Shown here: one piece after another, positions 5,827-27,192 of the stretch
Layout of the letters: the number at the start of each line of letters is the position of its first letter
Position numbering within the stretch: position 1 is the first letter of the stretch
From: a virus
Virus record (IMG/VR): IMGVR_UViG_3300030085_001083
Coordinates: 8,282-35,473 of that record
Strand: one strand, 5' to 3'
Length of the DNA: 27,192 nucleotides
Made by a program: the position numbers and the translations under genes
Notes under the pieces: generated by a model
Databases searched by the model: none
Told to the model about the DNA's origin: nothing
What the model saw: the letters and a program-made list of their open reading frames with translations, nothing else

Positions 5827-5827
5827 T

Positions 5828-8800: not shown

Positions 8801-11800
8801 GAGCACCTTTCATCCAAAGGTAGAGTATTATCATTTGGAGACGACTCTGAAGGTAATACTGTACTCAGAGCGCATGGTTTACTTAGCGACATAGCATCCT
8901 CTACTGTTAGTGTCAAAGGTTCAGCCAGTCCAGATTCTCACATTGTCAAAGAAATCATGCCGGGTGCCCCGGTAGTGACAATGACTCTTGGTGGCGGAGG
9001 TCAGGGAGCAGTCAACACAAAGGAGACTTGGGACCCGGCCCCACTCAGCAGATTGGCTTGGAACACTCGTAGAGACTGTCAAACCAAAGTAGTCGCTGTT
9101 TCGAGCGTTGGTCCAAGGAGGCGTATAATGGTATTACCTTTGAACAACAATGCCGGTGCTTTACAATCGTGGGGAACTTATTGTTTCCCCGCCACAGGAA
9201 AAATTTATCTTGAACTGTCAGGTAATCAAGGTGAACAAAAACAATTTGCTAGTGCTGAATATACCAGTAAAACAGGTAATTCATTTGTATTTACTAACAG
9301 CACTGGACTTGTTGGTTCGGGCACATTTGTATTAGCAGACGGCTCAGAAGCGGATTCATTCAACGCTTGGGTTACTGCTACTGGAATAGATGAGACTAGT
9401 GTGTTGCATGTCGATGATAAGTTTAGTGAAGAGTCAATGTGTAATGACGGGACCACAATCAACGACAGATTGTTCCAGAGCCTAGACACGGTTCAGCACG
9501 ATTATCAGTTAGGTAGTCAGTACGCAAGCACTCGTGCGCTTGTCGAAATACCTCTATTCGAGGAGTTCTTCTTTGACAATCCAGACAAAGGTATTTTCCC
9601 CGGCCCTGACAACAGTATGAAGTTGCACATAGACGCTACTCATACAGCGCATTCTTGGAATCCTAATCCAGTCGGTAGAAGAGCAGATGCTATCTCTCCT
9701 CAAGACCCTGAGATTTTTGGTCCGTTTTCTTACACTATCCAAAGAGACAGACATAGTAGTGGTACCAAAGTAACCAGACCTTACGATTCGGCTAACTACC
9801 GAGTATATGTCGAAGATGCTAATATTTTCCCTATACCGACAGCGCCTCCTACAGAAGTTGCCGAGTTAGGAGGTAGTGCTAGGTACAGAAGAGCGTTTTT
9901 GCCTAATGGAGAATGGTTTACTTACAGCGCTAGAAACATCTCTGACCACTATCTTACTATTGCTGATTCGGCAGATGACCATGCTTTCAGTAAGGATTTT
10001 TTCCGTGACCTAAAGGTAGGCGCTCATCTTACACCAGCACCCGGCTATCAAGATATGAATTACAACAGTATTGCTGACAATCCAAGTTTGATTAGTGCTG
10101 GTTACGAAAGAAGAAGGTCATTTTACTATGACCGTTCTAATGTTACAACTCAAGGTGGTAACGCTGACTACGGACTAAAGCAGTATGTTAGTGCTATAGA
10201 ATTAAGGGCCGGTCCTTCGACTAACCCTCACTTGCCGAAGATTATCAACAAGCGACCCAGAGCAAAGGCAATGGTAGTCACCGGAAGCCCTGTTACTTCT
10301 ATTAAAGTAGACGATGCCAGCCTTTTCCCTATCAAGAGTCCTGACAGCGATTACAATTTCAGAGTTGCTTGGATAGACTCTAGTGGAAATGTAAAAAGAG
10401 GATTTTACAACAACAGGGTAGGGAATGTATTAACCATCACTAATCCTGACACTGGCTTTACTCCTTCATCAGGTGATGAAATATATGTTGAGGACTTGTA
10501 CGCCACTTCTGCAAGCACTTGGCCAAAAGTTAAGGAGACATTCCTAAACAGGGCTTGGGCACATCCTTACTGTCCGGGTGGACTTAGACAGGGCGATACA
10601 ATATGGATGAATATGCACTATACTAATCCTTACGCAGTTGAAGGTTTGTTCTGTAAGAGTAGAGGAACACTCAATGAAGCAGAGGTTTGGAAAGGCTTTA
10701 ATGGCGGAGTGGGAGAAGTAAATGCCAATCCGAGAGATAGTATTCCATTAGAAAACTTCCTCATCGGAAATAGTTGTATAGAAACGGCTCAGAATTTAGT
10801 ACAGCATATTAACAAAACTATTGAACTAAACTACGGCGAGGTCGTAGCAGGCTCGATAACTCCACCAGTGGTTGCTTACCTAGACCCTTACCAGTGTACA
10901 GATGATTTTGTTAGAATATTACTTTACGATGTAGGCCATGACCGTGAATTTATTGCATTCCAAGATTTACATATGCAGGTTCAATCAAGTCCTGCTGCTG
11001 CTAGAATTAGCGAAGAAGATACTAACAAGACAGGAGTTGTCAAAAATGATGTTACTAATTCTGGTACACAGTTAGATGTTGCTGCTGGGTTCCCTAGTCA
11101 AAACAAGAGAATGAATACTACTACAAAATCTGATTTCATTGAGTCAAGTTACGCCCACGCATCTGATTGGAACGAAAGTTACTCCGGTGCAATATCAGAG
11201 CATAATGTCGGTGGGTTAGCAGATATAGACAAAGACAGTTACAGCAGTAGAACAAATCCAGCAGTAGCGGCAGCAGATGAAGCATTGATTCAGCACCGAG
11301 TAATCGACGACACAAGTAGAGAATCTTCTACCTTCTTTGATACTCCAGACGGTACTAGAGTCATACCTGCTTTCTTAGCCATGAAAGGTATTAGGAACTC
11401 GGTATTAGACTTAACTTCACACACCGAAGCAAGATTGCAGTATCTTGACCAATGGACTGATATGGATTTCGTTAGAAGACTGACCGTAGACTTAGGAGAG
11501 GTTGCGCTCAAAGATGGTGTGACAAACATAGAATCGGCTGCTAGAGAAGTAGTTAGGCTAATCAACCAAGCGGGCGCAAGAAATGGTAAAACACACGCCC
11601 GTAGACCAAACGACCAGTTTTTAGGTGACAGTTCTAAGTTTGACTTGTCCAGCCCCGGACCTAAATCAAATGCTTACAGCACTAACATTGACCCAGCAGC
11701 CACACATCTTCATGCTGATTTCGCTGCTACTGCTTCAACGCACGACCCTGCGCCTTTCTGGGACCCAAGTAAAGCGTTTTCAAGCCATGACCGTGGTACT

Positions 11801-14800
11801 CACATGGGATATGTTCGTGCCCATCTTGGAAGGGTCGTTCTCGACTCGGAAGATAATCCGGGCTTTTCTATAGTAATACACTCTACTATTCCGGGCGCTG
11901 CTGGTCGTAATTTCTGTACTTGGTTGGACAGCAGTAAAGCACAGAGCCCTTACAGACCACAGTTTTTGATAGGACACGGTGGTCGTTTCAGAAACTATTG
12001 GTGCCAGCCTGATGAAATGACTGGAGAAAATATGCATCCTGCACCTATGCCTATCAACAGGTTTGGTAGACCTTTCGCACCTATCACGACACTGAAAGAG
12101 CATTTACCTCCAGAGAACCCTAGTGACCCATTCTTGAACAACTTGAATTTCGGACCAGATAGGACAGACAGTGGAGGTGCGCTAGCATCCGCAAATGTAG
12201 AGGTTGTCAGCGGAAGGAATAGTAATACGGTGCTCAATGAATCGTTTGAAACCAAGAGCCCTGCTTCTACTTTAGTAGACGGACTCAGGATAGGTACAAG
12301 AGCCAAGGCTAGAATTAACTTTGGTGGCTTAACCCAAGCAGGTATACCCGGCTGGGCACCTGATGTAAGTAGATGGGGCTACGATAATGATGGTAGCCAA
12401 AGTCATTTCCGTTCTAAATATGGCACTTCTTCTGTCGCAGCCAGACCAATGACTGAAACTACGGTTGGTGCGGCTAATGGTTACATACCTCAAGATGATA
12501 TGAAGAAAGAAAATATAGGCAATAACCCACTTTACGGATTTAGGTTTGTCGACCATCGAGGAGATAACCACACAATCAGAATGGTTTACAGGCAGTTTGG
12601 TCAAAGTTTCGCTAACGACAATACATACTTACCTCCTACACTTGATGAAGAAGTTATCATCCATTTTGATGACAGAGATGTAGGTCAAGGAGGTTTTACT
12701 ATCGGTAGACATGTAGTAGGTACTGGTGAAGTTTGTGGAGAAAAGACTGGTGGGACTACTCAGCAATTAAAGGGTAATCTTTGGAACAATTATCCTGCTC
12801 CAATTGTCGGGGTAAAGGTTGCCACGACTTACTCAAGTGGTACAATGACTGTGGTACTGGATGCACCTTACGATACGAGTGCACCAGCAGTAATGCAAAC
12901 TCACCCCGACATACTGGGTTATCTTGGATTCCCAGAAAGCGGTATGTTCCAACTTTCTACACAAAGCGGTATTCAAGGTTTAAATTTTTACTACACTAGT
13001 AGAACACACAATGATTACAGCGGTACTCATAAGTTCTTTGGAGTCTTAGGTGGCTCTAGTAGTCACACTAACGGTGATTGGTTTATCAGCCCCAGACTCA
13101 ACTTTACCTCTTTGTTGACTGATGAAGTGATTGCCGCAGCAGTTGAACATGCCATCAACATGCCTGATTCAGACTTAGAAGGACTTGATGCTACGAGTTT
13201 TGATTGTACTAGTATGTTCGCACCTGATGGAAAAACGCTGGGCGAATGGGGAGTAAGTCCTACTGCTATTAGAATAAATACTAGAGCAGATAGAAAGGTA
13301 GCGTTGAGTAAATTATTCGAGGCCACAAGAAGCAAAGACTGGGGGTTATTAGAAGGTGCTTCGACTGATGCAGTTGTATCCACTAAACACACTGGTGGTC
13401 TGAGTACAGGTGAAACAGACGCAGGTACAAGATTAGATATCGGTTACATTCCTAGCACTGTGCTACATATCACTACTAAATACCGAGGCGCTAATGCCAA
13501 CACTGCTACTCCTATATTAGTTGACAGTCAAAACAATATGGTCGATATTACTAATTGGCAAAGAAATCTCAGAGGGGAAAACTTCACCGATGTAGCGGGA
13601 GACCATATCATACCAAGAGTCGACTCACCTTGTATAGAAGTACATTCTTTTTCAAACCCTGATATAAGTGTAGCAACAAATGAGTCTTGGGCCCTTCTAG
13701 GAAAACCTGCTAGTGACACTGCTAACAGTTGGGGTGAACCATTTACTATCTGGCATAGTAATGACAATTGGGCACTAGTAAGAAGCAAGGCTGGTGTTAG
13801 TGACCCAGAAGAAATTGTAACGATTGGTAGTAAAAGTTCTGATTTCCCCAACCCTGCTGCTGGAGATATATTGTGGAAAAGAACTTCTAGTGCTTATACT
13901 GATATCATTACTGATGGTGTTAGAAGAGCAGGTAGTAAGAAAGCCAGCCCTTTCCTTTATTTCCGTGGCGGTAGAGACAGCCCTGACCACTGGGTGCCGC
14001 TTTACTTCGGCGGCGGATTCAGCGGTGCTGTTGTAGATATTAACGACGGAACTCAAAATGATTACAGTGAGTTCTACACGCATCCGTATTCTTCTGGACC
14101 GACAGGTAGCGCAGGTATGCAGAATATAGGAGAAGTGGCTGGCTCTTACGCATTGTTAGATACCAATGCTATGTTGGCAATGTTCCCCGGTACACCTTAT
14201 CTCGACCAACATCGAGGACAGAACAATCCACCTTTCTTTAACCAAGATGCTCTGTTGACATTTGATATGACAAAGACTGCTAATAACAAAGTCACAGGAA
14301 TAGATTACACTGATGGGACAAATACCGTAAACGCAAACATTCCTAGCCCTATTGTCTTGAGATTTGCTCATCCTCACGCCAGATATAGTCCGTCAGGAGA
14401 TGCCACGGACCACACCACTTACATGGTATTTGGTCCCGGTCAGGCTTTCCCGCACAACACAGCAGCGCATGAACCACAAGGCTCTCGTATAGTTACACTA
14501 GGTAACGGCTACAGCGCAGTACCTATTCACTACAATAACGATGCGACTAAAGATACCTTCTTACCTAATCAGTTGGCTAACGGCGACTCGACTGAGCACA
14601 GTGGTTTCAACAGAGGTAGCGCCGAGGCTCACCTACCTATGACTACCTTTTTCCAGAAAAATAATGAGACTGGGTTCAACTATGTTATGAACTGGCAACC
14701 TACCAAAGGTTTCCCATCAGAAGATGCAAGTGCTACTAAAAGTTACGACCAAACAAATGTAAAGGCTTTCTATTACGAAGGTAGTGCGGTTGCATCTGCT

Positions 14801-17800
14801 AGACCCAAACATTATCATCCGTTTAATCATGTTCCTGTAGCAATCGCAGGTGGTGCTGCTAATACCATAGGCGGCTCTAATTTCTTACAAACCAGAGCAT
14901 CTGCTGCTGTTTGGCACATGGATGGCGGATATCATCCGGGTGGCCATTTCTTAGACAACCATGTAAGTAAAAATCCTAGTCATCCTCTAGGAGTAAGGCT
15001 AGATACTGGTAGCGACGCTGCTCACAATGTGTCTGCATTCAGACCCTGTGGTCTGTTAGCACACGCTTATTTAGCCTTCTATGGCGGAAACCCTACTGAA
15101 CAGGTAGTCAGTGAAAACATAGTGATTGTCGACGCAACTCGTGTCCAGAACGCAGAAGAATTGGCTACAATTATTAGTGCGTCAATCAATACTTTCCCCG
15201 GCAAAGACCCTCTCAAAGCAATGGGTGGCACATTTATGCCATCTATGCAAAACGCTCACAAGCAAGACAGATACGGTTGGGTCAAATCAACTGCTAAGAG
15301 TTATTCACAAGAAGTAGGCGGAACCCCTGCTACTGTAGTCATTGATGGTAGTTTTGACAAATTACCTGAATATGGCTGGGTAAGATTGAGTGACGGAACT
15401 AACGCTTATTACGCACCTTATGTGTCAACATCTTATTCAGCACCTAATTTAACTTTAACATTAGGTAAGAGTCCCGGCGCTTCCGGCGCTACTAACTTTG
15501 TTAACCCTCATGATAACTCAGTTTTGACCAGTCTTGCTGGAGGTACGACTTACGAGGCTTATATTTGGACAAAGGCAGGTACTCATAGGCACAATAACGA
15601 TGCGGCTAATACTTCAAGAGACCACATGTGTCAGGTTCACTTTAGTGGGTTTGTCGACGCTGTAGACCGAACTAGACCAGTAGGTGCAGTAGGATGGCAT
15701 GGTGAGAGATATTCTTACTTTAACTCATTAGACTTGGGTAGTAATACTTACGCTGCTGGATTGGGTGCTTGGCATCCTTTCCTAGGCTTTAACCCATACG
15801 GGGCAGCAGAGACTTGCTTGGCTGGTTCTGCACCTGTAACTATTACTGGAGAAGGAACTGCGAATACATTTACATCTGACTATTGCGTTACTGGTTTAGC
15901 CAGTAGGCACTTGATTGTGATTAGTCACGAAAGTGAATTACCTTTGATTGCTAAGGCTGACCGTAACGGGACAACTTGTACAGGTGATTTACTAATTGCC
16001 AATCAAACAGATAGGAATGACGGCGTTGGGACAATTCCTTGGGATACCGGAAAGGTTCACAACAAAGACCGATATGTCGGACCTGCTACTGCCGGTCCTC
16101 ATGTAGAAGTTCAAATTCACAAAAGTCAATTTAGGCCGACCACTGCTGACGATTACCCTAACGGTAATAGTCTACCAAGCGATGCTCAGTGGCACAGGGC
16201 TTTCCAAAGCGGTGACATGGTAAGAGCCAACGCTTGTAGATATCCTACTGGTGATTTGTTTTGGGATGAAAGTCTGTTACCGAGTAATACATTGTCAGAG
16301 TACGCAGGCACTTATGCTACTGAGTGCGTGGGTATAACTGGACAAGACCACTACTTAGATTCAGCCGCTAACCAAGGTCATACTGGTTTATTCGGTTATT
16401 ACAATAAGAGAAGTGCAGCAAGAAATTTCCTACCTGAACATGTCGTTTGGAAGCGTATGGATGGTGGCAGTCTAACCATGCCTGCTGTTAACGCTAGAGG
16501 TCTCGGTATGATTCCTTGGGTTAAGAGGAAAGATAGCAGTGCTACTGATTACAAACTAGTAGGAGAAAAAATACTTGGTAATGTAAGATTTAGTTTTGAG
16601 ACTACAAATGCCGCTATGTTCCCAATCATCCAAGCACAGGAACTAGGGCACCCTCAGTTAGCAGAGCAACATCCTCTGGAAGTAAGGAATGCCTTACTTA
16701 TACCAAACGAACACCTACAGTTCGACAGTGTACAGGTAGTTGATGACACAGGTCAGGAGCATAGGATAGAAGGAGGTTCTCCTTTCGGTACCGTTATTAT
16801 GGACTTTAGGCACATCAGTGACAGAGAAATAGAAGGCTTAGCGCCTGCTCTAGCCGGTGCCGGTGTAAATCCAAATCTCAAAATCAGATTACCAAACCCA
16901 GACGAAGTACCGGGTAACATCGTAATTAGGTCAGGATTTGACAGAATACAGGCTTATCAAAACGAAACGATTGGCTCTGGCGGTCTACAACATCCTGCTC
17001 AGAACATAACTCAGATAAGACAAATGTTCGACCATGAATATGCTGGACCGAGACTTTGGCCAACATGGGAAAACAATGGCTGGGAACACCTCAGTCAGGA
17101 TAGTGATGATATTTCGTTGGATAAAGCCAATAGCAGACTAAAGTTCCCTGCTTCTAACAAAGAAGGTTGGAACGACCATACTGATAATAATCCTCTCAAG
17201 TCTTCGTTTGAGCCTCACGACAGGTCGTTATATTTCCATGTGACAAGAATGGGAACAACAATGACACATCGTTACGATTTACAAGAATTAACATTTATGG
17301 GTTATTCATTAGATGACGGCATCATAGATACTAATGTTAATGCAGATGCAAGTATTTGGACAGATACCACGCAGTTAAGCGGCGGTAGATATTTCTTAAG
17401 AGTCTACAATCCCGCTACCGATAAAGGTGTGATTGCCTCTTATACTCAATTGGCATCAAAGAAAGGTTTTGGCACTGTGTCTAATAAAGTCGTATTTAGT
17501 CCAGACTTTGAGCAGTTTATCATAGATAACCATGACGACATCACTTTCAATTTGCGAATAGTGCCTTCTTATTATGTCCCTGCTGGAACAACAAGAATGT
17601 TTGCTGCTCGCAGACTCAGAGACCACAGCGAGTACAGCGGTGCAAGTCCAGATATGCAAAAGATAGATTGGCATGGAATGTATAGTGCTTTACCTACCAA
17701 TAACACAGAATTGTCAGGAGGTGCTGGTAAAATTTTACACTCTGTATTCAGTGCGCCAAAAATGACACCTATGCCTATACCAAGAATGGGTCACCACTAT

Positions 17801-20800
17801 GTCACTCCGAGCATGGCATTGATGCCCGGACATTATGCCCATCCCGCCTATCAAAGGATATACGATTTACATACTGCTTGTAAGAGTTCTAGTCATTCTC
17901 CTTTTGACAGTGACTTGATTGGCACAATAGAAGCAAGTAGATTAGGATTGGATTCAGAAGATGTAACTGCTAAAGGCTTTACTAGAGACCCGTTGCTGTG
18001 GTTCTCAGCAGCGAGTGCGGCTTATGGACCAAGTGACATACACGGCGGCGCATTTACGCTACTTACCGAGACCAAACTAAAGTATGAAGGATACGGTATA
18101 GCAGCCAGTGTAGGTACTAATGCAGGTGACATAAACGCAGCGGGAGGGCACACGCTTGTTCTCGAAGCAGCGGCTACATACACTATGAACAATCACTTCC
18201 CTGACCCGCTGGAAGTAGGTTCTTACCAGATTATTATTCAGCCGAATGTGTTTAAGCAACAGTTACAAGGATTCCATCAAAATCATAGTGACCCTATAAA
18301 GGCACCTAGCGAGGCTGGTACAAAAGTAACCGAACTGACAGGTCAGCAGGTTAACACAGTGATTGCTATAGAAAAGAATGTCAACACCAGAGGTGCTTAT
18401 GCGCTTATTTTAGCCGAGGCTATGATGGCCGATGTAAGAGGGTGTGAAGTAATACTCAACGAAGTCATATTGGATATCGACCCTGACCCCGGCAGCCAGT
18501 TTGCTTCTCTTCCACCTCTAGCACTTTACAACCCACTTGGTGTACAAGAATCTACTAGCCCTTCTTTTACTAGAAGAAGTCTACCTTACAGGCCGGGTAT
18601 GTTTGTAAGTTCTACTCCGGGTAGAACCTTGACCATACCATGGTGGAGTATACTGCACAAAGACGGTGCGACTGCTAGTGGTGCGAGCAGATTCAAGCAC
18701 CTTGAGTGGTACAAACCTGATAATTACTACGAGTTGTGTAGAGCAGGTTACGGTGCTGTTGGCGCTCAGATTACTTTGGCTGGATATCCTACATCTTTCC
18801 TTGACATATACGAGCCACACAAGAGAGTCAGAAGTCTAAACCCTCACTGCGTAGTGATATCTGCGACACAAGGCTCCAGTGAAATCGTAGTCGACAACGC
18901 TGACTTGTTCCCGATTTATCCTTATTACGGAGAGGTATTAGAATATACAAAAGACGGGAAAAGATATACTGCTTCTTACACAGATGTTAGAGGTACACTT
19001 GCCACAGGAAGCCTAGGTCAAACAATTGCATTTGATGGTGTTACTCAGATAACTATTGGCTTCTGGACAAACATAGCAGAGGATACTATACTGAAGTTAA
19101 GTAGACCTTATGATAACGGTAGTGCATCAACACTTTACCTTGATTCTGACACTAGTTTACTAACTAGAAACTTACCTCAACTGGCTAACGGTAGTAGGGA
19201 TACGAATTCCTTACATCCTGCTGATGCTTTCCTTTGTATGTGGCACCCTAATCTGGGCAGACCATTTACTTGGTATAGCGATGACTCTTCTAGGACTATC
19301 TATACCAAAGCAGGTACGACTGATACACCTGTAGACCAAAAACCGTACAATCATGTACCAGAGCATTTCGAGACTATACATTACCACGATTTCAATTATG
19401 TTGCTAGCAAGGGTCCATTTGCGCTTGGTATGAAATGGCCAGCCCCGCCACGCGACCATGATAACAACGGTAGTACCGTTCTAAGACACGATGGTACGGC
19501 TTACACTGCTTCCCAAATGGATGCACTGGTCGATGGTTCTGGTACATTGAATAACCAAGGAGGTACAATAGGTGCAAATAAATACAACTTCTTTGGATTT
19601 TGGCCGGGTGGAAGCCACGGTGGAGGTGCTGTTAGTAGACTCGAATCATACGGCCATTCATTGATGGGTTGGGGTAGCGATACCTTCGGCATGGATTGCG
19701 AGACTTACCGAAATAATGACGGTGTTGAGACTCTGAGTTTACCTAACGATAGAAACAGGTGTTTCGGTTACAGGATGGCAGTTAGACAACTGTATAACAG
19801 ACCAAGATGGTCCCCTTACATTCGTGGTTGGTTAGAAGTAGCCGACTCAAACGCTATGCTTGGATACTACAACGGGCCACTAATCCAACAAGATTCTAAG
19901 ACAAATGGCTGGGATTATGTAGGTACTGTCAGTGGTCAATCTGATGAAGATTTCGGTGCACTGTATGTAGGTATACTTGAGAGAATAACGCAAGTTTCCA
20001 GTTTACTCGGACAAGACCAACTGGGTCGTCAGGTCAGGTACAGTGATGGCAGGAGAATGACAGGACCATTCGGTTGCCCGGTTAGAACTGCAAGAAATGC
20101 ATCTACTGTAACCCGCTTCTTCCCTAATGATGAAGAAGGACAAGGCATCGAAGAGTTGTCACAAGCCCACAGACATTACATGGTCGACTGGTGGGGCAAC
20201 ACTCGTGGCGAAGATGTCAGGCGTTTCCCTGTGAGAGGATTCGGGCTACGGCCTTCTTGGGACCCAGAAGATGCTTACAAAGATACTAATGTAAGTCATA
20301 GACCTGCTGCAAACGCTTTGTTTGGTGGAGATGGTAATGACAGACAAAGCGGTAATGCAAATACAGTCAATAACGATGCTACTAACATGGGTGTTGTAGA
20401 TTGGTTCAACCCAGCAAGTATGTTGAGAGTCGGTGACCGAGGAGACGGTAGAGGTTGTAGATGGCCCACAGTTTTCAACGAGAGTCTACTTATGGCTGTC
20501 AGCGAAAACCATGACGCTACTGGACTTGTATTGTCAAGTAACACAGCCGAACCTGTCTACGGACAAGGTTTGGTTAGGCCGAGCAACGAGACATTGCAGG
20601 CTGGTGAAATCGAAAGAGGTATCAGCGATAGAGTAGACTTAGATTCTGATGACGGTCTACTCAAGCCTAGTGCACATGTCGGTGAGGCCATTGAAACTGT
20701 CAACGCAGATACTAGAGGTGCTGAGCCTGTATCAAGAGATGATGTTAGATTAGGGCTAGATGTAGATACTATCGCAGAACTAAACGACGGTGTAAGTAGA

Positions 20801-21637
20801 GAATACATCGTTATGTCAACAGAAGCCCATAGTCTACATACAGACAGAGAAGTTGGACAAAGGACTAATATTAGAGGAGCATATAACTTCGGAAATAGAA
20901 CTCTCAAGGATTTAGACATGACTGCTCTTGATTGGAGTACTGCTCCTGTCACTGGTGTAGTTAAGCACTCTGACGCACACGCCATGTGGCCACTTGGTGG
21001 TACTTATGTAATAGATTGGAATAAACACGCTGGTAATTTGGATGTTACAGGTTGGGGCAAAGATGGAGTTACTACCTCATCTAACCCTTATCAAGACAGC
21101 AATCATCAACACCCTCTAAAAGAAAACCTAAACCACTCCGACAGCAACATACAATTCTTGTATAGACCAGCGTTTGGACTTGACTTCAAGCACAGTCAGA
21201 TGTTCAGGTCTTATGTAGCACTGAAAGGTAGCAGCCCTCAAGAAAACTCAAACTTCTACAGGGCTACTGCTGGTGGTAAGTATGGTATGTTTACTAGTGA
21301 TGCACCGGGTGCTCGTACAGGTACTCCGAGTAATCCGCCTTACGCACCTGTCTATACCGTAGACCCGGCGACCAGTACAACTGTACCTGTCAGTCAAGGG
21401 CCGAACATACCCGGTGTCGATGTCACAGGCTATGATAAGTCAGATATTACCAGCCCAGTCGCCAGAGTGGTCATGTCAGAAAACACTCTTGAGCACTTCC
21501 GAGCCGACGCAAGTCGTCGTTCTATAGATGATGATGAGGGTGATTACAATGTTCAACCAAGACACAGCCAGACGCTACATCCAAAGGGTAGTAAAGGGGA
21601 TGCATCTTATAATACAGGGGACCATAGTGGGGAGTGA
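5828..21637 (+). CDS. Giant 5269-aa structural protein with N-terminal LamG-like domain
   Basis: One uninterrupted frame of 5269 codons from ATG 5828 (GTG 5819 is possible), roughly 0.57 MDa. Residues 1-235 are a LamG/concanavalin A-like domain: GLKFNGISDSVLVPTNNTSL, NSFTLETWFIPD, LSMHVNGDLLVEQ, QMFLGGRGGDFRGTLE, GLWRFEEP. Residues about 860-938 hold a beta module shared with the hub-like protein. A 'VDxAxLFPI' beta motif recurs near residues 1326, 1492 and 4353, with a looser copy near 3169. FLIGHxGR occurs near 452 and 2046. Helical 'xxAxxLxxxIN' motifs recur near 1652, 1902, 2431 and 3108. The sequence is rich in Gly, Asn, Asp, His and Trp, has no obvious signal peptide or membrane helix, and shows no catalytic motif I recognise. 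The setting among baseplate genes suggests a giant tail-tip, fibre or adhesin protein for host binding; the exact role is inferred. The reading frame shows no break, so it is likely functional. Confidence 0.85.
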   Translation: MSLLINAGYGLKFNGISDSVLVPTNNTSLHGKPSGERKRLPATMNSFTLETWFIPDSGGTIFEQDNMMRLSVGSPSSPAPASFEVRLQNKNTGRDSVYTLTSAKPVNKANGTLAYWDGILFPSVNSVITGSNLGSSVDSNDVSAFTDGTRELLNVTVTFDRRILSMHVNGDLLVEQVLEEEHQLVPQQSQMFLGGRGGDFRGTLETIHLSAGALPSGRSDFAPIKSDSTLGLWRFEEPINPIAMRVTTPALTASTSASTISIGTTAAAALIEELTGQTDKTFVNFASSTGVYNQGQYKFKKYAATSTSDISIPKVPYNLLINPLGYDSKTGKPTNKAPERVRLFTINSSTGAIVVESIHLDFAASSSGRRGLLMAHDAGEFVVITGDCLVDSGNGNVFQPQGSGTQFSQRQGQVIIDESDFENHGLMFSMSMAIDSHEYNQFSASTTNMGEEFLIGHSGRHILNHVTSHPFMGALPPTESHIVEKKLDAGSDVVTATFIPQFGNIKDIIPVNSVVSSFDEHGPVALSNVVSSSRVSTFVENGMADIDESQRGLLALGGPQFDTEPFLLKSISSTDSNTNIKAVIPSIESRIATLILPELETYDYAPFVQIHYNAIDRTGEHFNVGATSRLTANISTATLTLQSIKSFGADNAVIPAQKITIDGHKPFSSATNQTAKISHSAKTIVFSATPNNSSFNSAAVTNAIVKLADGSPKLLVSKTLPDVSTVVTGSTRIIDLIRDSMAIRPLALVAPGGLVTFDTPDLFPFEDGHLEGEDSEGIVGEDKLDLTLCPTNYLPRVGTDTPQTTPQAISVAQSELASRSSVFHKILVKTNLVRTDDFSEVAGVKFRKASNGSRGRIGLKINNSGGYSASTTAAMSVDGGTANQLIAVDDNLYKANGKLLGIVTAVTTNSVTVGAGTADAVVDDDELFIEPQSAGRGSANQSTIVHEYFDIIEHKSRKNVTSLVVQPCDRNRFAQLSKVVTDKGIGNHITIEHLSSKGRVLSFGDDSEGNTVLRAHGLLSDIASSTVSVKGSASPDSHIVKEIMPGAPVVTMTLGGGGQGAVNTKETWDPAPLSRLAWNTRRDCQTKVVAVSSVGPRRRIMVLPLNNNAGALQSWGTYCFPATGKIYLELSGNQGEQKQFASAEYTSKTGNSFVFTNSTGLVGSGTFVLADGSEADSFNAWVTATGIDETSVLHVDDKFSEESMCNDGTTINDRLFQSLDTVQHDYQLGSQYASTRALVEIPLFEEFFFDNPDKGIFPGPDNSMKLHIDATHTAHSWNPNPVGRRADAISPQDPEIFGPFSYTIQRDRHSSGTKVTRPYDSANYRVYVEDANIFPIPTAPPTEVAELGGSARYRRAFLPNGEWFTYSARNISDHYLTIADSADDHAFSKDFFRDLKVGAHLTPAPGYQDMNYNSIADNPSLISAGYERRRSFYYDRSNVTTQGGNADYGLKQYVSAIELRAGPSTNPHLPKIINKRPRAKAMVVTGSPVTSIKVDDASLFPIKSPDSDYNFRVAWIDSSGNVKRGFYNNRVGNVLTITNPDTGFTPSSGDEIYVEDLYATSASTWPKVKETFLNRAWAHPYCPGGLRQGDTIWMNMHYTNPYAVEGLFCKSRGTLNEAEVWKGFNGGVGEVNANPRDSIPLENFLIGNSCIETAQNLVQHINKTIELNYGEVVAGSITPPVVAYLDPYQCTDDFVRILLYDVGHDREFIAFQDLHMQVQSSPAAARISEEDTNKTGVVKNDVTNSGTQLDVAAGFPSQNKRMNTTTKSDFIESSYAHASDWNESYSGAISEHNVGGLADIDKDSYSSRTNPAVAAADEALIQHRVIDDTSRESSTFFDTPDGTRVIPAFLAMKGIRNSVLDLTSHTEARLQYLDQWTDMDFVRRLTVDLGEVALKDGVTNIESAAREVVRLINQAGARNGKTHARRPNDQFLGDSSKFDLSSPGPKSNAYSTNIDPAATHLHADFAATASTHDPAPFWDPSKAFSSHDRGTHMGYVRAHLGRVVLDSEDNPGFSIVIHSTIPGAAGRNFCTWLDSSKAQSPYRPQFLIGHGGRFRNYWCQPDEMTGENMHPAPMPINRFGRPFAPITTLKEHLPPENPSDPFLNNLNFGPDRTDSGGALASANVEVVSGRNSNTVLNESFETKSPASTLVDGLRIGTRAKARINFGGLTQAGIPGWAPDVSRWGYDNDGSQSHFRSKYGTSSVAARPMTETTVGAANGYIPQDDMKKENIGNNPLYGFRFVDHRGDNHTIRMVYRQFGQSFANDNTYLPPTLDEEVIIHFDDRDVGQGGFTIGRHVVGTGEVCGEKTGGTTQQLKGNLWNNYPAPIVGVKVATTYSSGTMTVVLDAPYDTSAPAVMQTHPDILGYLGFPESGMFQLSTQSGIQGLNFYYTSRTHNDYSGTHKFFGVLGGSSSHTNGDWFISPRLNFTSLLTDEVIAAAVEHAINMPDSDLEGLDATSFDCTSMFAPDGKTLGEWGVSPTAIRINTRADRKVALSKLFEATRSKDWGLLEGASTDAVVSTKHTGGLSTGETDAGTRLDIGYIPSTVLHITTKYRGANANTATPILVDSQNNMVDITNWQRNLRGENFTDVAGDHIIPRVDSPCIEVHSFSNPDISVATNESWALLGKPASDTANSWGEPFTIWHSNDNWALVRSKAGVSDPEEIVTIGSKSSDFPNPAAGDILWKRTSSAYTDIITDGVRRAGSKKASPFLYFRGGRDSPDHWVPLYFGGGFSGAVVDINDGTQNDYSEFYTHPYSSGPTGSAGMQNIGEVAGSYALLDTNAMLAMFPGTPYLDQHRGQNNPPFFNQDALLTFDMTKTANNKVTGIDYTDGTNTVNANIPSPIVLRFAHPHARYSPSGDATDHTTYMVFGPGQAFPHNTAAHEPQGSRIVTLGNGYSAVPIHYNNDATKDTFLPNQLANGDSTEHSGFNRGSAEAHLPMTTFFQKNNETGFNYVMNWQPTKGFPSEDASATKSYDQTNVKAFYYEGSAVASARPKHYHPFNHVPVAIAGGAANTIGGSNFLQTRASAAVWHMDGGYHPGGHFLDNHVSKNPSHPLGVRLDTGSDAAHNVSAFRPCGLLAHAYLAFYGGNPTEQVVSENIVIVDATRVQNAEELATIISASINTFPGKDPLKAMGGTFMPSMQNAHKQDRYGWVKSTAKSYSQEVGGTPATVVIDGSFDKLPEYGWVRLSDGTNAYYAPYVSTSYSAPNLTLTLGKSPGASGATNFVNPHDNSVLTSLAGGTTYEAYIWTKAGTHRHNNDAANTSRDHMCQVHFSGFVDAVDRTRPVGAVGWHGERYSYFNSLDLGSNTYAAGLGAWHPFLGFNPYGAAETCLAGSAPVTITGEGTANTFTSDYCVTGLASRHLIVISHESELPLIAKADRNGTTCTGDLLIANQTDRNDGVGTIPWDTGKVHNKDRYVGPATAGPHVEVQIHKSQFRPTTADDYPNGNSLPSDAQWHRAFQSGDMVRANACRYPTGDLFWDESLLPSNTLSEYAGTYATECVGITGQDHYLDSAANQGHTGLFGYYNKRSAARNFLPEHVVWKRMDGGSLTMPAVNARGLGMIPWVKRKDSSATDYKLVGEKILGNVRFSFETTNAAMFPIIQAQELGHPQLAEQHPLEVRNALLIPNEHLQFDSVQVVDDTGQEHRIEGGSPFGTVIMDFRHISDREIEGLAPALAGAGVNPNLKIRLPNPDEVPGNIVIRSGFDRIQAYQNETIGSGGLQHPAQNITQIRQMFDHEYAGPRLWPTWENNGWEHLSQDSDDISLDKANSRLKFPASNKEGWNDHTDNNPLKSSFEPHDRSLYFHVTRMGTTMTHRYDLQELTFMGYSLDDGIIDTNVNADASIWTDTTQLSGGRYFLRVYNPATDKGVIASYTQLASKKGFGTVSNKVVFSPDFEQFIIDNHDDITFNLRIVPSYYVPAGTTRMFAARRLRDHSEYSGASPDMQKIDWHGMYSALPTNNTELSGGAGKILHSVFSAPKMTPMPIPRMGHHYVTPSMALMPGHYAHPAYQRIYDLHTACKSSSHSPFDSDLIGTIEASRLGLDSEDVTAKGFTRDPLLWFSAASAAYGPSDIHGGAFTLLTETKLKYEGYGIAASVGTNAGDINAAGGHTLVLEAAATYTMNNHFPDPLEVGSYQIIIQPNVFKQQLQGFHQNHSDPIKAPSEAGTKVTELTGQQVNTVIAIEKNVNTRGAYALILAEAMMADVRGCEVILNEVILDIDPDPGSQFASLPPLALYNPLGVQESTSPSFTRRSLPYRPGMFVSSTPGRTLTIPWWSILHKDGATASGASRFKHLEWYKPDNYYELCRAGYGAVGAQITLAGYPTSFLDIYEPHKRVRSLNPHCVVISATQGSSEIVVDNADLFPIYPYYGEVLEYTKDGKRYTASYTDVRGTLATGSLGQTIAFDGVTQITIGFWTNIAEDTILKLSRPYDNGSASTLYLDSDTSLLTRNLPQLANGSRDTNSLHPADAFLCMWHPNLGRPFTWYSDDSSRTIYTKAGTTDTPVDQKPYNHVPEHFETIHYHDFNYVASKGPFALGMKWPAPPRDHDNNGSTVLRHDGTAYTASQMDALVDGSGTLNNQGGTIGANKYNFFGFWPGGSHGGGAVSRLESYGHSLMGWGSDTFGMDCETYRNNDGVETLSLPNDRNRCFGYRMAVRQLYNRPRWSPYIRGWLEVADSNAMLGYYNGPLIQQDSKTNGWDYVGTVSGQSDEDFGALYVGILERITQVSSLLGQDQLGRQVRYSDGRRMTGPFGCPVRTARNASTVTRFFPNDEEGQGIEELSQAHRHYMVDWWGNTRGEDVRRFPVRGFGLRPSWDPEDAYKDTNVSHRPAANALFGGDGNDRQSGNANTVNNDATNMGVVDWFNPASMLRVGDRGDGRGCRWPTVFNESLLMAVSENHDATGLVLSSNTAEPVYGQGLVRPSNETLQAGEIERGISDRVDLDSDDGLLKPSAHVGEAIETVNADTRGAEPVSRDDVRLGLDVDTIAELNDGVSREYIVMSTEAHSLHTDREVGQRTNIRGAYNFGNRTLKDLDMTALDWSTAPVTGVVKHSDAHAMWPLGGTYVIDWNKHAGNLDVTGWGKDGVTTSSNPYQDSNHQHPLKENLNHSDSNIQFLYRPAFGLDFKHSQMFRSYVALKGSSPQENSNFYRATAGGKYGMFTSDAPGARTGTPSNPPYAPVYTVDPATSTTVPVSQGPNIPGVDVTGYDKSDITSPVARVVMSENTLEHFRADASRRSIDDDEGDYNVQPRHSQTLHPKGSKGDASYNTGDHSGE

Positions 21638-21642
21638 AGCGT

Positions 21643-22068
21643 ATGACACCGATGGATAAGGCTTGGCGATTACTCAAGATGCCTCAAGAGGCTCGTGAAT
21701 TTGCTACACAGGCCCATGGTGACCAAATGTATGGCGAACAGCCTTATATGACCCATGTAGAAGATGTAGCGAGTGGATTCACCGACCCTCATTTACAGCG
21801 AATTGCTTACTTACATGATGTCGTAGAAGATACAGGTATAGGTTTAGATGAAATTCATGAAAGATTCGGGCCAGAAGTCGGTTCAGCAATCGATGCTTTG
21901 ACTCGCCGTGAAGGAGAACAATATTTTGATTTCATCCAACGAGTCAACGAACACCCCGAAGCAAAGCAAGTTAAACTGGCTGACTTACATGCTAATTTAA
22001 AGAGGCAGCCGCATGAAAGCCTTGCTCGAAGATACAACAAAGCAATTGGTATATTGAGGGGGGAGTGA
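21643..22068 (+). CDS. HD-domain (p)ppGpp hydrolase-like enzyme (MESH1/SpoT hydrolase type)
   Basis: The product is 141 aa from ATG 21643, with GGGGAG at 21629-21634; GTG 21634 would add three residues but lacks a proper site. It matches the HD family of SpoT/MESH1-type pyrophosphohydrolases: AHGDQMYGEQPYMTHVEDVA gives metal ligand H38, AYLHDVVEDTG gives H58-D59 with the catalytic E62-D63, and VKLADLHANL gives D114. Typical companions IHERFGPEV and LTRREGEQYFDFIQRV are present. All key residues are kept, and the length is near the catalytic core (MESH1 about 180 aa), so it is a trimmed but apparently active enzyme. The expected reaction is Mn2+-dependent removal of the 3'-pyrophosphate from (p)ppGpp or a related nucleotide. 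It sits between two structural genes with coupled starts. Archaea generally lack classical ppGpp signalling, so the real substrate is open. Confidence 0.8.
   Translation: MTPMDKAWRLLKMPQEAREFATQAHGDQMYGEQPYMTHVEDVASGFTDPHLQRIAYLHDVVEDTGIGLDEIHERFGPEVGSAIDALTRREGEQYFDFIQRVNEHPEAKQVKLADLHANLKRQPHESLARRYNKAIGILRGE
22058..22065 (+). promoter_or_regulatory. Shine-Dalgarno that selects ATG 22071
   Basis: A GGGGGGAG run lies 5 nt before ATG 22071. GTG 22065 is in frame but overlaps this site, so ATG 22071 is preferred. The preceding gene stops at 22066-22068. Confidence 0.65.
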
Positions 22069-22070
22069 AC

Positions 22071-23723
22071 ATGGCGCTAGGTAAGAATCTCGCAACAGGT
22101 CGGGCAGACGCTGCTCAAGATACTATAATGAAGAAGATTCGTAAGCCACGCTTTGTCGATAACGCTGTCCGTCATGCTCAATACACCAAAGTAAAGGCTG
22201 GCTTTGCGGCCAACAAACCTACCAAAACAGACTTCGTACCTACACCTGAGCGTAGATACAAACTCATAGAAGAAGAAGATACCATCCGTTTGCTTCACAA
22301 TCCTACAGACAGTATGACCTATGAGGGCTCGTTGTTTTATGATGGTGACAAAGTGGCCACTACCAGTACGCTACCTGCACTGGCTGTTGGCAGTGAAAAC
22401 CATACTCAAGCACTGGTTATGTCCGAAATCAAGACATCAAACAAGGGTAATAGGTACGGAATAGAGAACTTGAAGGGTAGAAAGTTACATGATATAGGCT
22501 TCACTGACAAAACCATCCGTTTTGTTCAGAAAGTGGGAGTAGGGCTGAGGACTTCTGACCTCGCAATCAAGTTAGGTAACTCGTCTAAGAGTTCAATAAA
22601 TGGCATCAAGGTCAAATCCCACAGCGGAACATTCGTTGCTAGGGACTTTTATGGGGTAGATTCGATAAATGCACTAAGATATCTAGCAAAACACGACTTC
22701 TATTCACCTAGAAGCGATAGATTTGGTAATTTACTGTATGTACCTCAGACACAGATTGAAAGAGAGCACTTTTTGAATGAAAACAGGGTATCTGGGGGTA
22801 CTTCTGAGAACAATAACGACGCTGTACCTAACAGAGTAGTAGTCAGAGGTAAGTCTAGGGCTAATAACGACCAAAATGTAGTCCAAGTAGACGATTTTGG
22901 CACTCAAGTAGACACCGTAAATGAAGTACCGGGCGGAATATCGGCTCCAACTGCTCTAACTAAGGCTAGTGCTAGAAAAATAGGTCAGAATATGTTGAGA
23001 ATGGCCAAAAAAGCCATTGGTTCTAAGAAATATAATGATGTTTTAGCAGCAACACAAGTTCAGCCCGGAGACTTGGTAAATTACCAGTCAAGACACGACA
23101 GTGAAAAGAAAATAGTGCTGAGTGGGACTTATGACTTAATAAATCGCAAGTCTGACCTACATGTCAACTCAGTTGACGGTACATTGGAAGATGTTTTACA
23201 AAGATTCCAAGAAGTCGACATAAGTGGTAGTATGGATGATAATTTCGATAGAAACAGACAGTTTGGTGTAGAAGAATTCAGTACATCCTTTGGTTTGAAG
23301 ATGAAAATCAACTGGGAAATTGCTGAAAGAGTAGATTCTAATAGAGGTGTTGGGTTTAATCTCGGTCAGCCGAATAGAGACACTATACATGGGGCTCGTA
23401 GGCTACAAAGTACGGGCGTTCTGATAAACAACGGCGGTGGTTACGCAATCAATACTACATCATTTACAACCGATGGAGTAAATGCTAATTCTGTCTTTAC
23501 TACAGATAACCAAGCGGTCTATACTAGCAACGGTAATAAGTTAGGTCATATACATTCGGCTAGTGTAGGAACTAATACTGTAGTGATTAAATCAAGAAGC
23601 GTTCATAAAGTATTAGATGACGAAGAGTTGTATTTACTCCCAGATACTTTACCAGAAGCAAGAAACAGCCACCTTAAGTTAGGAGTGGTTCAGACTAAAT
23701 ATTCGAGAACAAGGAGAGGATGA
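22071..23723 (+). CDS. Putative baseplate hub / late-control-D-like protein
   Basis: The product is 550 aa from ATG 22071. The basic N-terminal region (residues 1-75) is followed by a beta-rich part (DTIRLLHNPTDSMTYEGSLF). Residues about 150-310 contain the pattern I associate with tail hub proteins of the gpD/gp27 type: FTDKTIRFVQKVGVGL, INALRYLAKHDFYSPRSDRF, GNLLYVPQ, NRVVVRGKSRANND, VQVDDFGTQVD, then helix SARKIGQNMLRMAKKA and VQPGDLVNY. Residues about 449-533 hold an appended beta module (INNGGGYAINTT, NGNKLGHIHSAS, LDDEELYLLP) very similar to one in the giant protein. Hub proteins sit at the centre of the tail tip and connect the tube to the baseplate. The position after the giant protein and before fibre genes fits. 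The hub call is by pattern, not by alignment. Confidence 0.6.
   Translation: MALGKNLATGRADAAQDTIMKKIRKPRFVDNAVRHAQYTKVKAGFAANKPTKTDFVPTPERRYKLIEEEDTIRLLHNPTDSMTYEGSLFYDGDKVATTSTLPALAVGSENHTQALVMSEIKTSNKGNRYGIENLKGRKLHDIGFTDKTIRFVQKVGVGLRTSDLAIKLGNSSKSSINGIKVKSHSGTFVARDFYGVDSINALRYLAKHDFYSPRSDRFGNLLYVPQTQIEREHFLNENRVSGGTSENNNDAVPNRVVVRGKSRANNDQNVVQVDDFGTQVDTVNEVPGGISAPTALTKASARKIGQNMLRMAKKAIGSKKYNDVLAATQVQPGDLVNYQSRHDSEKKIVLSGTYDLINRKSDLHVNSVDGTLEDVLQRFQEVDISGSMDDNFDRNRQFGVEEFSTSFGLKMKINWEIAERVDSNRGVGFNLGQPNRDTIHGARRLQSTGVLINNGGGYAINTTSFTTDGVNANSVFTTDNQAVYTSNGNKLGHIHSASVGTNTVVIKSRSVHKVLDDEELYLLPDTLPEARNSHLKLGVVQTKYSRTRRG
23713..23719 (+). promoter_or_regulatory. Shine-Dalgarno that selects ATG 23726
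   Basis: GGAGAGG lies 6 nt before ATG 23726, whereas the earlier in-frame ATG 23720 directly abuts it. The product therefore begins MPVLNEGTRF. Confidence 0.65.
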
Positions 23724-25619: not shown

Positions 25620-27116
25620 TCACTCGCCACGCTTTACTACGATATCGTCTATCCTTAGTATGCTAATGGTGACTTCGCTAGCAGATTGCACTGCTTGCTT
25701 GACTAGGTCAAGTGGCTCCCATACATTGGCTTCTACCATGGAACAAGCCCCACCATTCTCTATATCTGGACCAGCGTCGCTGTTACCTTGTTGGTGTTCG
25801 TTTCTTAGAGTCAATACAGTGTCTAGTGGGTCATGACCTGCGTTCTCAGCGATAGTGGCAGGTATAGACTCAAGAGCCTCAGCAAACGCATCGATAGCCA
25901 TCTGCTCTCTACCACCTGCTTCCGCAGCCCTTTGCCTTAGATGGAGGGCTGCATTGAGATAGGCAGAGCCTCCACCGGGCACCACGCCTAGAGTGGTGTA
26001 AGCCAAGCAGACCACACCTAGTGCGTCTTCAAAGCCACGCTCAGTCTCATCGAGAGTTTGCTTAGTAGCGCCTCTTAGAATAAGTGTAGTTACTTCTCCT
26101 TCACCCTTAACTACGACATACTTCATGTCACCGATAGTCTTGCACTCTGCGTCGCAGTTTACAGCCTCTTGTAGGTCTTCTGTAGTGTGCGCTATTGTAG
26201 TGTTGAGTAGTTTGGACAAAGCAGTCATGTCACTCTCAGGAACTCTATGAACCAGAGAAATGCCTTGTTTTGCTAATGTCGCCGCAACTACCTCATTCAC
26301 GCTATCTCTAACGAATACGGTACCGCCATCCGGTAACATACTGATGATTTGTTGCGCTTTTTCGACCCAGTTGTCACGACCAGTCTGTCGTTTGTACTGT
26401 TGATATTCAGCAGCCGAGCCCAAACTCAGTTGGACATTGTCATCGCTTTTACTGTCACTCAGACTAGTGTTGATGAGTATAGCCTTGCCATTTGGTTTCA
26501 TAGGCATGGCAGGTAGCATGAACTCCTTATGGAGGACTACGCCACTAAAGCACGATGAATCGTCTAGGCTACCACCGGGTTGACAAAGAACACGGATTCG
26601 GTCAAACTCTCCCCCGGCCTTCTCAACTGCTTCTACGCACAAAGCACTTACATGCTCGATGCTAGATTCAAGCGCTTTCCCTGTGATTGAAGTCTTAGCC
26701 ACATTCTGTAGGTGGTCTTTGGCATCTACTTTGAGTGTCTCAAGATGTTCTGTAGTCCACCTAGATGCCTGTCTGTAACCTCTACAGATTACATTGGCGT
26801 GTAGGCCTTTGTTGAACAGGAGTTCACTGTTACCCAGTAATTCACCTGCTAAGACCACTGTACTCGTAGTACCATCATAGCACATACTTTCCTGTGTGTT
26901 GGCAGCCTCGACTACCATCTTAGCGGCAGGGTGACTTGCATCTAACTCCTGCAATATGGTAGCACCGTCGTTAGTGACTATCACATTGCCACCAGCGTCT
27001 ACCATCATTTTGTCCATCCCCATCGGACCCAGTGTAGTTTTCACTGTACCGACAGTTCTCTTTGCTGCTCTTATATTGTGCACTACTGCACTAATGCTCT
27101 GTTCTTGTTCGCTCAT
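25620..27116 (-). CDS. Thermosome subunit (group II chaperonin)
   Basis: The product is 498 aa on the - strand; ATG 27116 is chosen because AGAGGG (27123-27128) stands 6 nt before it (ATG 27140 would add eight residues and lacks a site). Group II chaperonins form double rings that fold proteins with ATP. Equatorial motifs are clear: TTLGPMGMDKMMVD (27-40), NDGATIL (49-55), DGTTSTVVLAGELL (81-94), ERGFEDALGVV (359-369, catalytic-type D364), VVPGGGSAYL (378-387), ENAGHDPLD (424-432) and SASEVTISILRIDD (478-491). The apical lid helix region (about 231-260) is kept, so it is group II and not GroEL. Oddities: the usual N-terminal segment before the TTLGPKGMDKM motif is about 25-30 residues shorter than in host thermosomes, and the conserved GDGTT reads YDGTT. 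Usual length is about 540-550 aa. Its place beside viral tail genes suggests a virus-encoded folding helper. Confidence 0.95.
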   Translation of the reverse strand: MSEQEQSISAVVHNIRAAKRTVGTVKTTLGPMGMDKMMVDAGGNVIVTNDGATILQELDASHPAAKMVVEAANTQESMCYDGTTSTVVLAGELLGNSELLFNKGLHANVICRGYRQASRWTTEHLETLKVDAKDHLQNVAKTSITGKALESSIEHVSALCVEAVEKAGGEFDRIRVLCQPGGSLDDSSCFSGVVLHKEFMLPAMPMKPNGKAILINTSLSDSKSDDNVQLSLGSAAEYQQYKRQTGRDNWVEKAQQIISMLPDGGTVFVRDSVNEVVAATLAKQGISLVHRVPESDMTALSKLLNTTIAHTTEDLQEAVNCDAECKTIGDMKYVVVKGEGEVTTLILRGATKQTLDETERGFEDALGVVCLAYTTLGVVPGGGSAYLNAALHLRQRAAEAGGREQMAIDAFAEALESIPATIAENAGHDPLDTVLTLRNEHQQGNSDAGPDIENGGACSMVEANVWEPLDLVKQAVQSASEVTISILRIDDIVVKRGE

Positions 27117-27192
27117 TGTTTTCCCTCTCAAAATATTCATCTAATATGGAATCTATACAGGAAGTACATACTCTGTGCTTAGAGCATCTAAT
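27091..27192 (-). CDS. C-terminal end of zinc-knuckle-like protein (partial)
   Basis: A - strand frame enters at 27192 and stops at TAG 27091-27093, overlapping the thermosome start by 26 nt. The visible 33 residues begin IRCSKHRVCTSCIDSILDEY and end NNERTRTEH. The cysteines (C, then CxxC six residues later) look like part of a zinc-binding site. The overlap suggests translational coupling to the thermosome. The N-terminal part is outside the window, so function is unknown. Confidence 0.45.
   Translation of the reverse strand: MRCSKHRVCTSCIDSILDEYFERENNERTRTEH
27123..27128 (-). promoter_or_regulatory. Shine-Dalgarno that selects thermosome ATG 27116
   Basis: Read on the - strand, AGAGGG lies 6 nt before ATG 27116. 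It makes the protein start MSEQEQ rather than at ATG 27140. Confidence 0.7.

Follow-up and report, generated by a model that had tools for sequence, protein, structure and literature searches.

A small HD hydrolase gene as candidate cargo of a tag-addressed cassette system, with proposed loading into the virion, in marine archaeal tailed viruses

Introduction

Alt of bacteriophage T4 is an ADP-ribosyltransferase. Both Alt and the internal proteins of T4 are provided with a capsid-targeting sequence (PMC3012670). These proteins are diverse and swappable, and only a short N-terminal sequence is common to them.

A solved (p)ppApp hydrolase, 7smg from Bacteroides caccae, belongs to the Aph1 family. 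In a study on a Pseudomonas phage, a gene of a similar type was named small alarmone hydrolase, with its substrate left open (PMC12846349). An earlier survey identified a few archaea in which such hydrolases occur without synthetases (PMC3153485). For tailed viruses of archaea, published trees place the HVTV-1-like major capsid proteins (MCPs) in a large, mostly marine clade which includes the magroviruses (PMC8651126).

Here, an HD-domain gene is described which was identified in a window of 27,192 nucleotides, the whole stretch of DNA analysed, which is part of the 35,473-base IMG/VR record IMGVR_UViG_3300030085_001083 (positions 8,282 to 35,473). On balance, we consider it somewhat probable, by analogy to T4, that this gene encodes one cargo of a cassette system with which marine archaeal tailed viruses would load tagged proteins into their virions.

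The HD hydrolase gene and its borders

The gene codes for an alarmone-hydrolase-like protein of 141 amino acids (21643..22068, + strand), as judged from Pfam HD_4, PHROG_990 and AlphaFold/Foldseek. The upstream border of the site is formed by the gene for a giant structural protein of 5272 amino acids (5819..21637, +), the stop of which overlaps the HD start by GTGA, and the downstream border by the gene for a 552-amino-acid neighbour protein (22065..23723, +). An alternative in-frame GTG start of the HD gene at 21634 (+) overlaps the upstream TGA, so that GTGA overlaps are present with both neighbours (21634-21637 and 22065-22068). These overlaps make the coupled translation proposed in the earlier note plausible, and its placement of the gene in a late structural block is supported by strand and position.

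The match to Pfam HD_4 is just above the cut-off (28.4 versus 27.2 bits), and the match to PHROG_990, a phage family of "metal-dependent phosphohydrolases", has an E value of 5.8e-36. Orthologues with 61-99% identity were identified in ten further IMG/VR contigs, and relatives below 60% identity in 391 phage records. The AlphaFold model has a pLDDT of 94, and its top Foldseek matches are all alarmone hydrolases. According to the profile scores, the orthologues and the confident model, the gene is not a chance open reading frame. A recent bacterial contaminant as the origin of the gene was excluded, since ten virus contigs, all from one lineage, contain orthologues.

The hydrolase domain comprises residues 14-141 (21682..22065, +), with the match to the 7smg profile starting at position 14. 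In an alignment of 27 viral homologues, Y35, H38, Y56-L57-H58-D59, V61, E62, D63, K111 and D114 are invariant. All residues named from the sequence at the outset were found in place: the first metal-binding histidine H38 (21754..21756, +), the HD motif H58-D59 (21814..21819, +), the catalytic pair E62-D63 (21826..21831, +) and D114, which is located together with K111 at 21973..21984 (+).

Enzyme family and candidate substrate

With its HD fold and the H...HD...ED...D residues, the protein falls into the superfamily of HD alarmone hydrolases. When the orthologue profile was compared to the PDB, the best match was the (p)ppApp hydrolase 7smg (1.5e-24), followed by RelMtb (6e-19), RelSeq (2e-17), PaSAH (about 1e-12) and MESH1 (3e-12). 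By fold, 7smg was again first, with Foldseek TM scores of 0.82 for 7smg, 0.78 for PaSAH and 0.76 for MESH1. Thus, 7smg is the best solved match both by sequence and by fold, and the viral protein is nearer to it than to the (p)ppGpp hydrolases. The two proteins are of similar length (149 and 141 amino acids), and they share the HD fold, the metal residues and a stretch of the form Y-x-D-[FY]-I-x-R...P...VKLxDL. In contrast to 7smg, the HD protein is encoded by an archaeal virus and carries 12 additional residues ahead of its domain; the identity is about 30%, and hydrolysis of (p)ppApp is a prediction.

The hydrolase domains of MESH1 and SpoT/Rel are members of the same superfamily, and all their catalytic residues are present in the HD protein. 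However, the HD protein is shorter and its matches to this group are weaker. In addition, the alignment places Met-Tyr where RelSeq has the Arg-Lys pair R44-K45 before the G-x-PY motif, and R44 of RelSeq is involved in guanine stacking. On the basis of the 7smg match and of the replaced Arg-Lys pair, the protein was filed as a small alarmone hydrolase nearest to the (p)ppApp type; by profile as well as by model, it is a small HD hydrolase which has the (p)ppApp hydrolases as its nearest relatives. The alarmone-hydrolase-like identity suggested in the earlier note therefore stood, with 7smg replacing MESH1/SpoT as nearest kin. The proposed action on NADPH, as for MESH1, became a weaker parallel for the same two reasons.

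It is improbable that the HD protein has an ordinary metabolic role late in infection, such as that of a MESH1-like NADPH or PAPS phosphatase, on which the N-terminal residues would be incidental. MESH1 is indeed a structural relative and was crystallised with NADPH and with PAPS, but the (p)ppApp hydrolase is nearer by sequence and fold, and the HD gene occupies a cassette site with tagged inserts, as described below.

No RelA/SpoT (alarmone) synthetase domain was identified in the 24 virus records searched; among four archaeal control genomes, only Methanosarcina acetivorans contained one. A toxin-antitoxin pair with a partner synthetase in the virus was rejected, since none of the 24 records contains the synthetase domain.

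The virus lineage

From its gene content, the virus is assigned to an archaeal lineage of Caudoviricetes with an HVTV-1-like MCP. In the phage collection, relatives of the MCP were found only in haloarchaeal tailed viruses and in one Methanofastidiosa virus. A gene for a thermosome-type (group II) chaperonin, an archaeal marker, is located on the strand opposite to the HD gene (25620..27140, -), and the same type of chaperonin is present in 9 of the 12 records tested, including that of the window. No close relative of the chaperonin of the window was found in the phage collection. Together, the MCP relatives and the chaperonin bear out the archaeal virus recognised at the outset. The best matches of the terminase are bacteriophages, and it is of no use for host assignment.

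In the relatives (G001-G009, up to 99.6 kb), a common block consists of the genes for terminase, portal, maturation protease, MCP, tail proteins and the giant protein, a homologue of which is present in all of them. The giant protein ahead of the cassette site is a single chain of 5272 amino acids here and comprises 6119 amino acids in G007. The MCP family and the gene order terminase-portal-protease-MCP are shared with the Druskaviridae (HVTV-1) and the marine archaeal tailed viruses including magroviruses. Unlike the lineage of the window, HVTV-1 is devoid of the N-terminal tag, and by its MCP this lineage is without a close isolate in the phage collection.

The N-terminal tag

When the neighbours of the HD gene were compared among relatives, unrelated genes in tandem were found to open with the same 12 residues. 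In the HD protein, this tag is MTPMDKAWRLLK (12 codons, 21643..21678, +); it lies outside the HD domain and begins a predicted helix of residues 3-25. Its consensus over residues 1-12 is M-x-P-[MFI]-D-x-A-W-x-[LVI]-L-K.

With the strict DNA pattern M-x-P-[MFIL]-D-x-A-W-x-x-x-K, at least 119 stretches were identified in IMG/VR, with about one expected by chance according to a rough estimate from base frequencies. Among the matches listed, the tag is present on 205 unique proteins, which fall into 98 payload families after removal of the tag. To name the host, cellular genomes and proviruses were searched, and in 257 Gb of GTDB genomes only four chance-like matches were obtained, in frames unlike those of real tagged genes. 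Bacteriophage relatives of the HD protein start at the HD helix and are devoid of the tag; it was absent from 24 contigs (about 4.2 Mb) of unrelated phages which encode HD homologues, and was found neither in HVTV-1, the nearest isolate, nor in vir519. A description of the tag was not found in the literature searched, which covers these viruses incompletely.

All synonymous codons are used for the tag proline among the matches listed (CCA 63, CCG 56, CCC 48 and CCT 38), and this free codon use implies that the conserved unit is the peptide. The pattern itself fixed the proline and partly D, W and K, and left free the last L before the final K, which is present in 179 of 200 cases. Sequence comparison thus shows that, in this virus lineage, many proteins without relation to each other carry the tag, which is conserved at the protein level.

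Within one virus, the tags are identical in 25-33 of 36 nucleotides, and the likeness among tags of different cargo is 0.297, compared to 0.201 under shuffled virus labels (reached in 0 of 300 shufflings). Such a likeness would follow from a separate tag receptor in each virus, and gene conversion would fit as well. It would also be expected if the first 36 bases served as a recombination hook or translational leader for cassette swaps, with a peptide devoid of function. We regard this explanation as very improbable: codons vary freely, yet P, A, W, L and K are the same from virus to virus; tags have been retained inside fusion proteins, where some of the copies are located at the joints; and the tag is present on each of the 47 counted inserts of the cassette site.

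The cassette site

The site was sampled independently of the tag, by use of the gene for the 552-amino-acid downstream neighbour. Both borders were identified in 77 viruses. In 43 of these, no gene is inserted, and the stop of the giant gene overlaps or abuts the start of the neighbour gene. In the other 34 viruses, 47 of 47 counted inserted open reading frames carry the tag, with differing payloads; at two further sites (L346 and L152), tagged open reading frames are present which the counting cut-off missed. The cargo consists of 15 ADP-ribosyltransferase-like proteins, six HD proteins, six DUF6321 proteins and seven smaller groups.

Three relatives (G006, G008 and G009) have no insert at the cassette site; their HD gene belongs to a gene cluster which precedes the terminase gene, and in two of them it is fused to other modules. 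A conserved place beside tail genes, which the earlier note had suggested to look for, is therefore not fixed. A tie of the HD gene to the tail was likewise rejected as a rule, since in some relatives the site is unoccupied and the HD gene is found at another place. Neither the tag nor the cassette character of the site had been noticed in the earlier note.

Strand and place of the tagged genes

An HVTV-1-like MCP was identified in 32 of 40 long contigs picked for the tag, and the remaining eight may be fragments. Conversely, tags were found in 8 of 19 contigs picked for the MCP, and a reversed control pattern gave none. In the 32 contigs, every strict tag (48) and every relaxed tag (111) is located on the strand of the MCP gene, compared to only 39-62% of the open reading frames. 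All 23 tags from the MCP-picked contigs are also located on the MCP strand of their own contig; counted by contigs, since tandem genes are not independent, strand and tag agree in 40 of 40. Of the relaxed tags, 84 of 111 are located 22-33 kb upstream of the MCP gene and 10 are located 3-7 kb downstream, while two are at +29-30 kb, the place of the HD gene in the window. By strand and position, the tagged genes are part of the late structural set. Gene maps thus show tagged genes on the structural-gene strand at a few fixed places, with the cargo swapped and the tag kept.

Payloads of the tagged proteins

The payloads include HD hydrolases, ADP-ribosyltransferase-like, GNAT-like and DNA-binding proteins, DNA methyltransferases and others. 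Profile matches were obtained for the D12 DNA adenine methyltransferase (E value 2.7e-17) and for DUF6321 (1.2e-17), and matches below the cut-off for GNAT, PARP, zinc ribbon and winged helix. The HExxH and ParB-like assignments are based on motifs read by eye. For the largest payload family, the model has a pLDDT of 78, and the top Foldseek matches are KptA/Tpt1, followed by PARPs; this moderate model and the sub-threshold profile matches suggest an ADP-ribosyltransferase-like family. With PADLOC, no match was obtained for five cargo proteins.

The late-strand location and the lineage restriction of the tag would fit equally well if it docks to a late partner inside the cell, such as an assembly factor, a chaperonin, the tail complex or the replication site, and if the enzymes act late without being packaged. 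A chaperonin gene is located nearby in most close relatives. However, in G007, an incomplete 38-kb record, tags are present and no chaperonin was seen. In addition, the cargo (ADP-ribosyltransferase-like, GNAT-like, methyltransferase, HD and DNA-binding proteins) looks like a set for host takeover, which is usually most useful early. A late intracellular partner is thus rather unlikely, though it deserves consideration.

Proposed loading into the virion

In the best reading, the tag would serve, like the capsid-targeting sequence of T4, as a virion-loading signal on swappable enzymes for host takeover or counter-defence. As in T4, a short conserved N-terminal sequence is present on otherwise unrelated proteins, an ADP-ribosyltransferase is predicted among the cargo, and the gene for a head maturation protease adjoins the MCP gene (G008:C1:29856-31280, matching gp119 of HVTV-1 with an E value of 1e-19). 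The payload set, with ADP-ribosyltransferase-like, D12 methyltransferase, GNAT-like and DUF6321 proteins, recalls injected proteins. In contrast to T4, the lineage is unrelated, far more payload families are present, and packaging is deduced from the genes. A virion-carried enzyme, which the earlier note held to be conceivable, is now the best lead, since the same 12 residues are common to unrelated late-strand proteins; we lean towards one 12-residue tag that would load a large and fast-exchanged arsenal of enzymes into virions for injection into archaea.

According to this loading model, the tag would form an amphipathic docking helix, by which tagged proteins would be taken into the virion during assembly, like those with the T4 capsid-targeting sequence, and would enter the archaeon along with the DNA. 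With less certainty, the HD cargo might then strip the 3'-pyrophosphate from nucleotides that resemble (p)ppApp or (p)ppGpp, or from tRNA ends which toxic alarmone synthetases have modified, and might thereby blunt a stress or defence response of the host.

If this model is true, the tag would be a key to injected effectors and counter-defence proteins of widespread marine archaeal viruses, the proteins of which are mostly unannotated, and any protein behind a tag would be a candidate. The concept of swappable packaged defence proteins, known from T4, would be extended to archaeal viruses, and sequence alone would suffice to recognise this general system of cargo delivery. An archaeal defence based on alarmone-like nucleotides or on pyrophosphorylation would become testable.

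Several observations on single proteins were made in addition. The maturation protease of G008 is a candidate for the cutting of tagged cargo. Long proteins with several internal tags (GEPMDIAFQLLK and similar), each ahead of a new module, are present in G009:C1:1946-3100, G008:C1:6439-7356, L216 and L168, as if tagged cargo genes had been fused or were made as polyproteins. The tagged DUF6321 proteins (L213:9865-10179, L413 and L416) are short and very basic; they are probably DNA-binding, and a role as internal virion proteins is plausible. In G008:C1:6439-7356 and its relatives, a recurring module near "ERKSPEAMRRKLEYDKRYEKTPERRKY" and "HTQGGKLTLEPEHANRARHFKNRGT" (phrog_6437) often follows an internal tag and resembles a small nuclease or a domain that binds nucleic acids.
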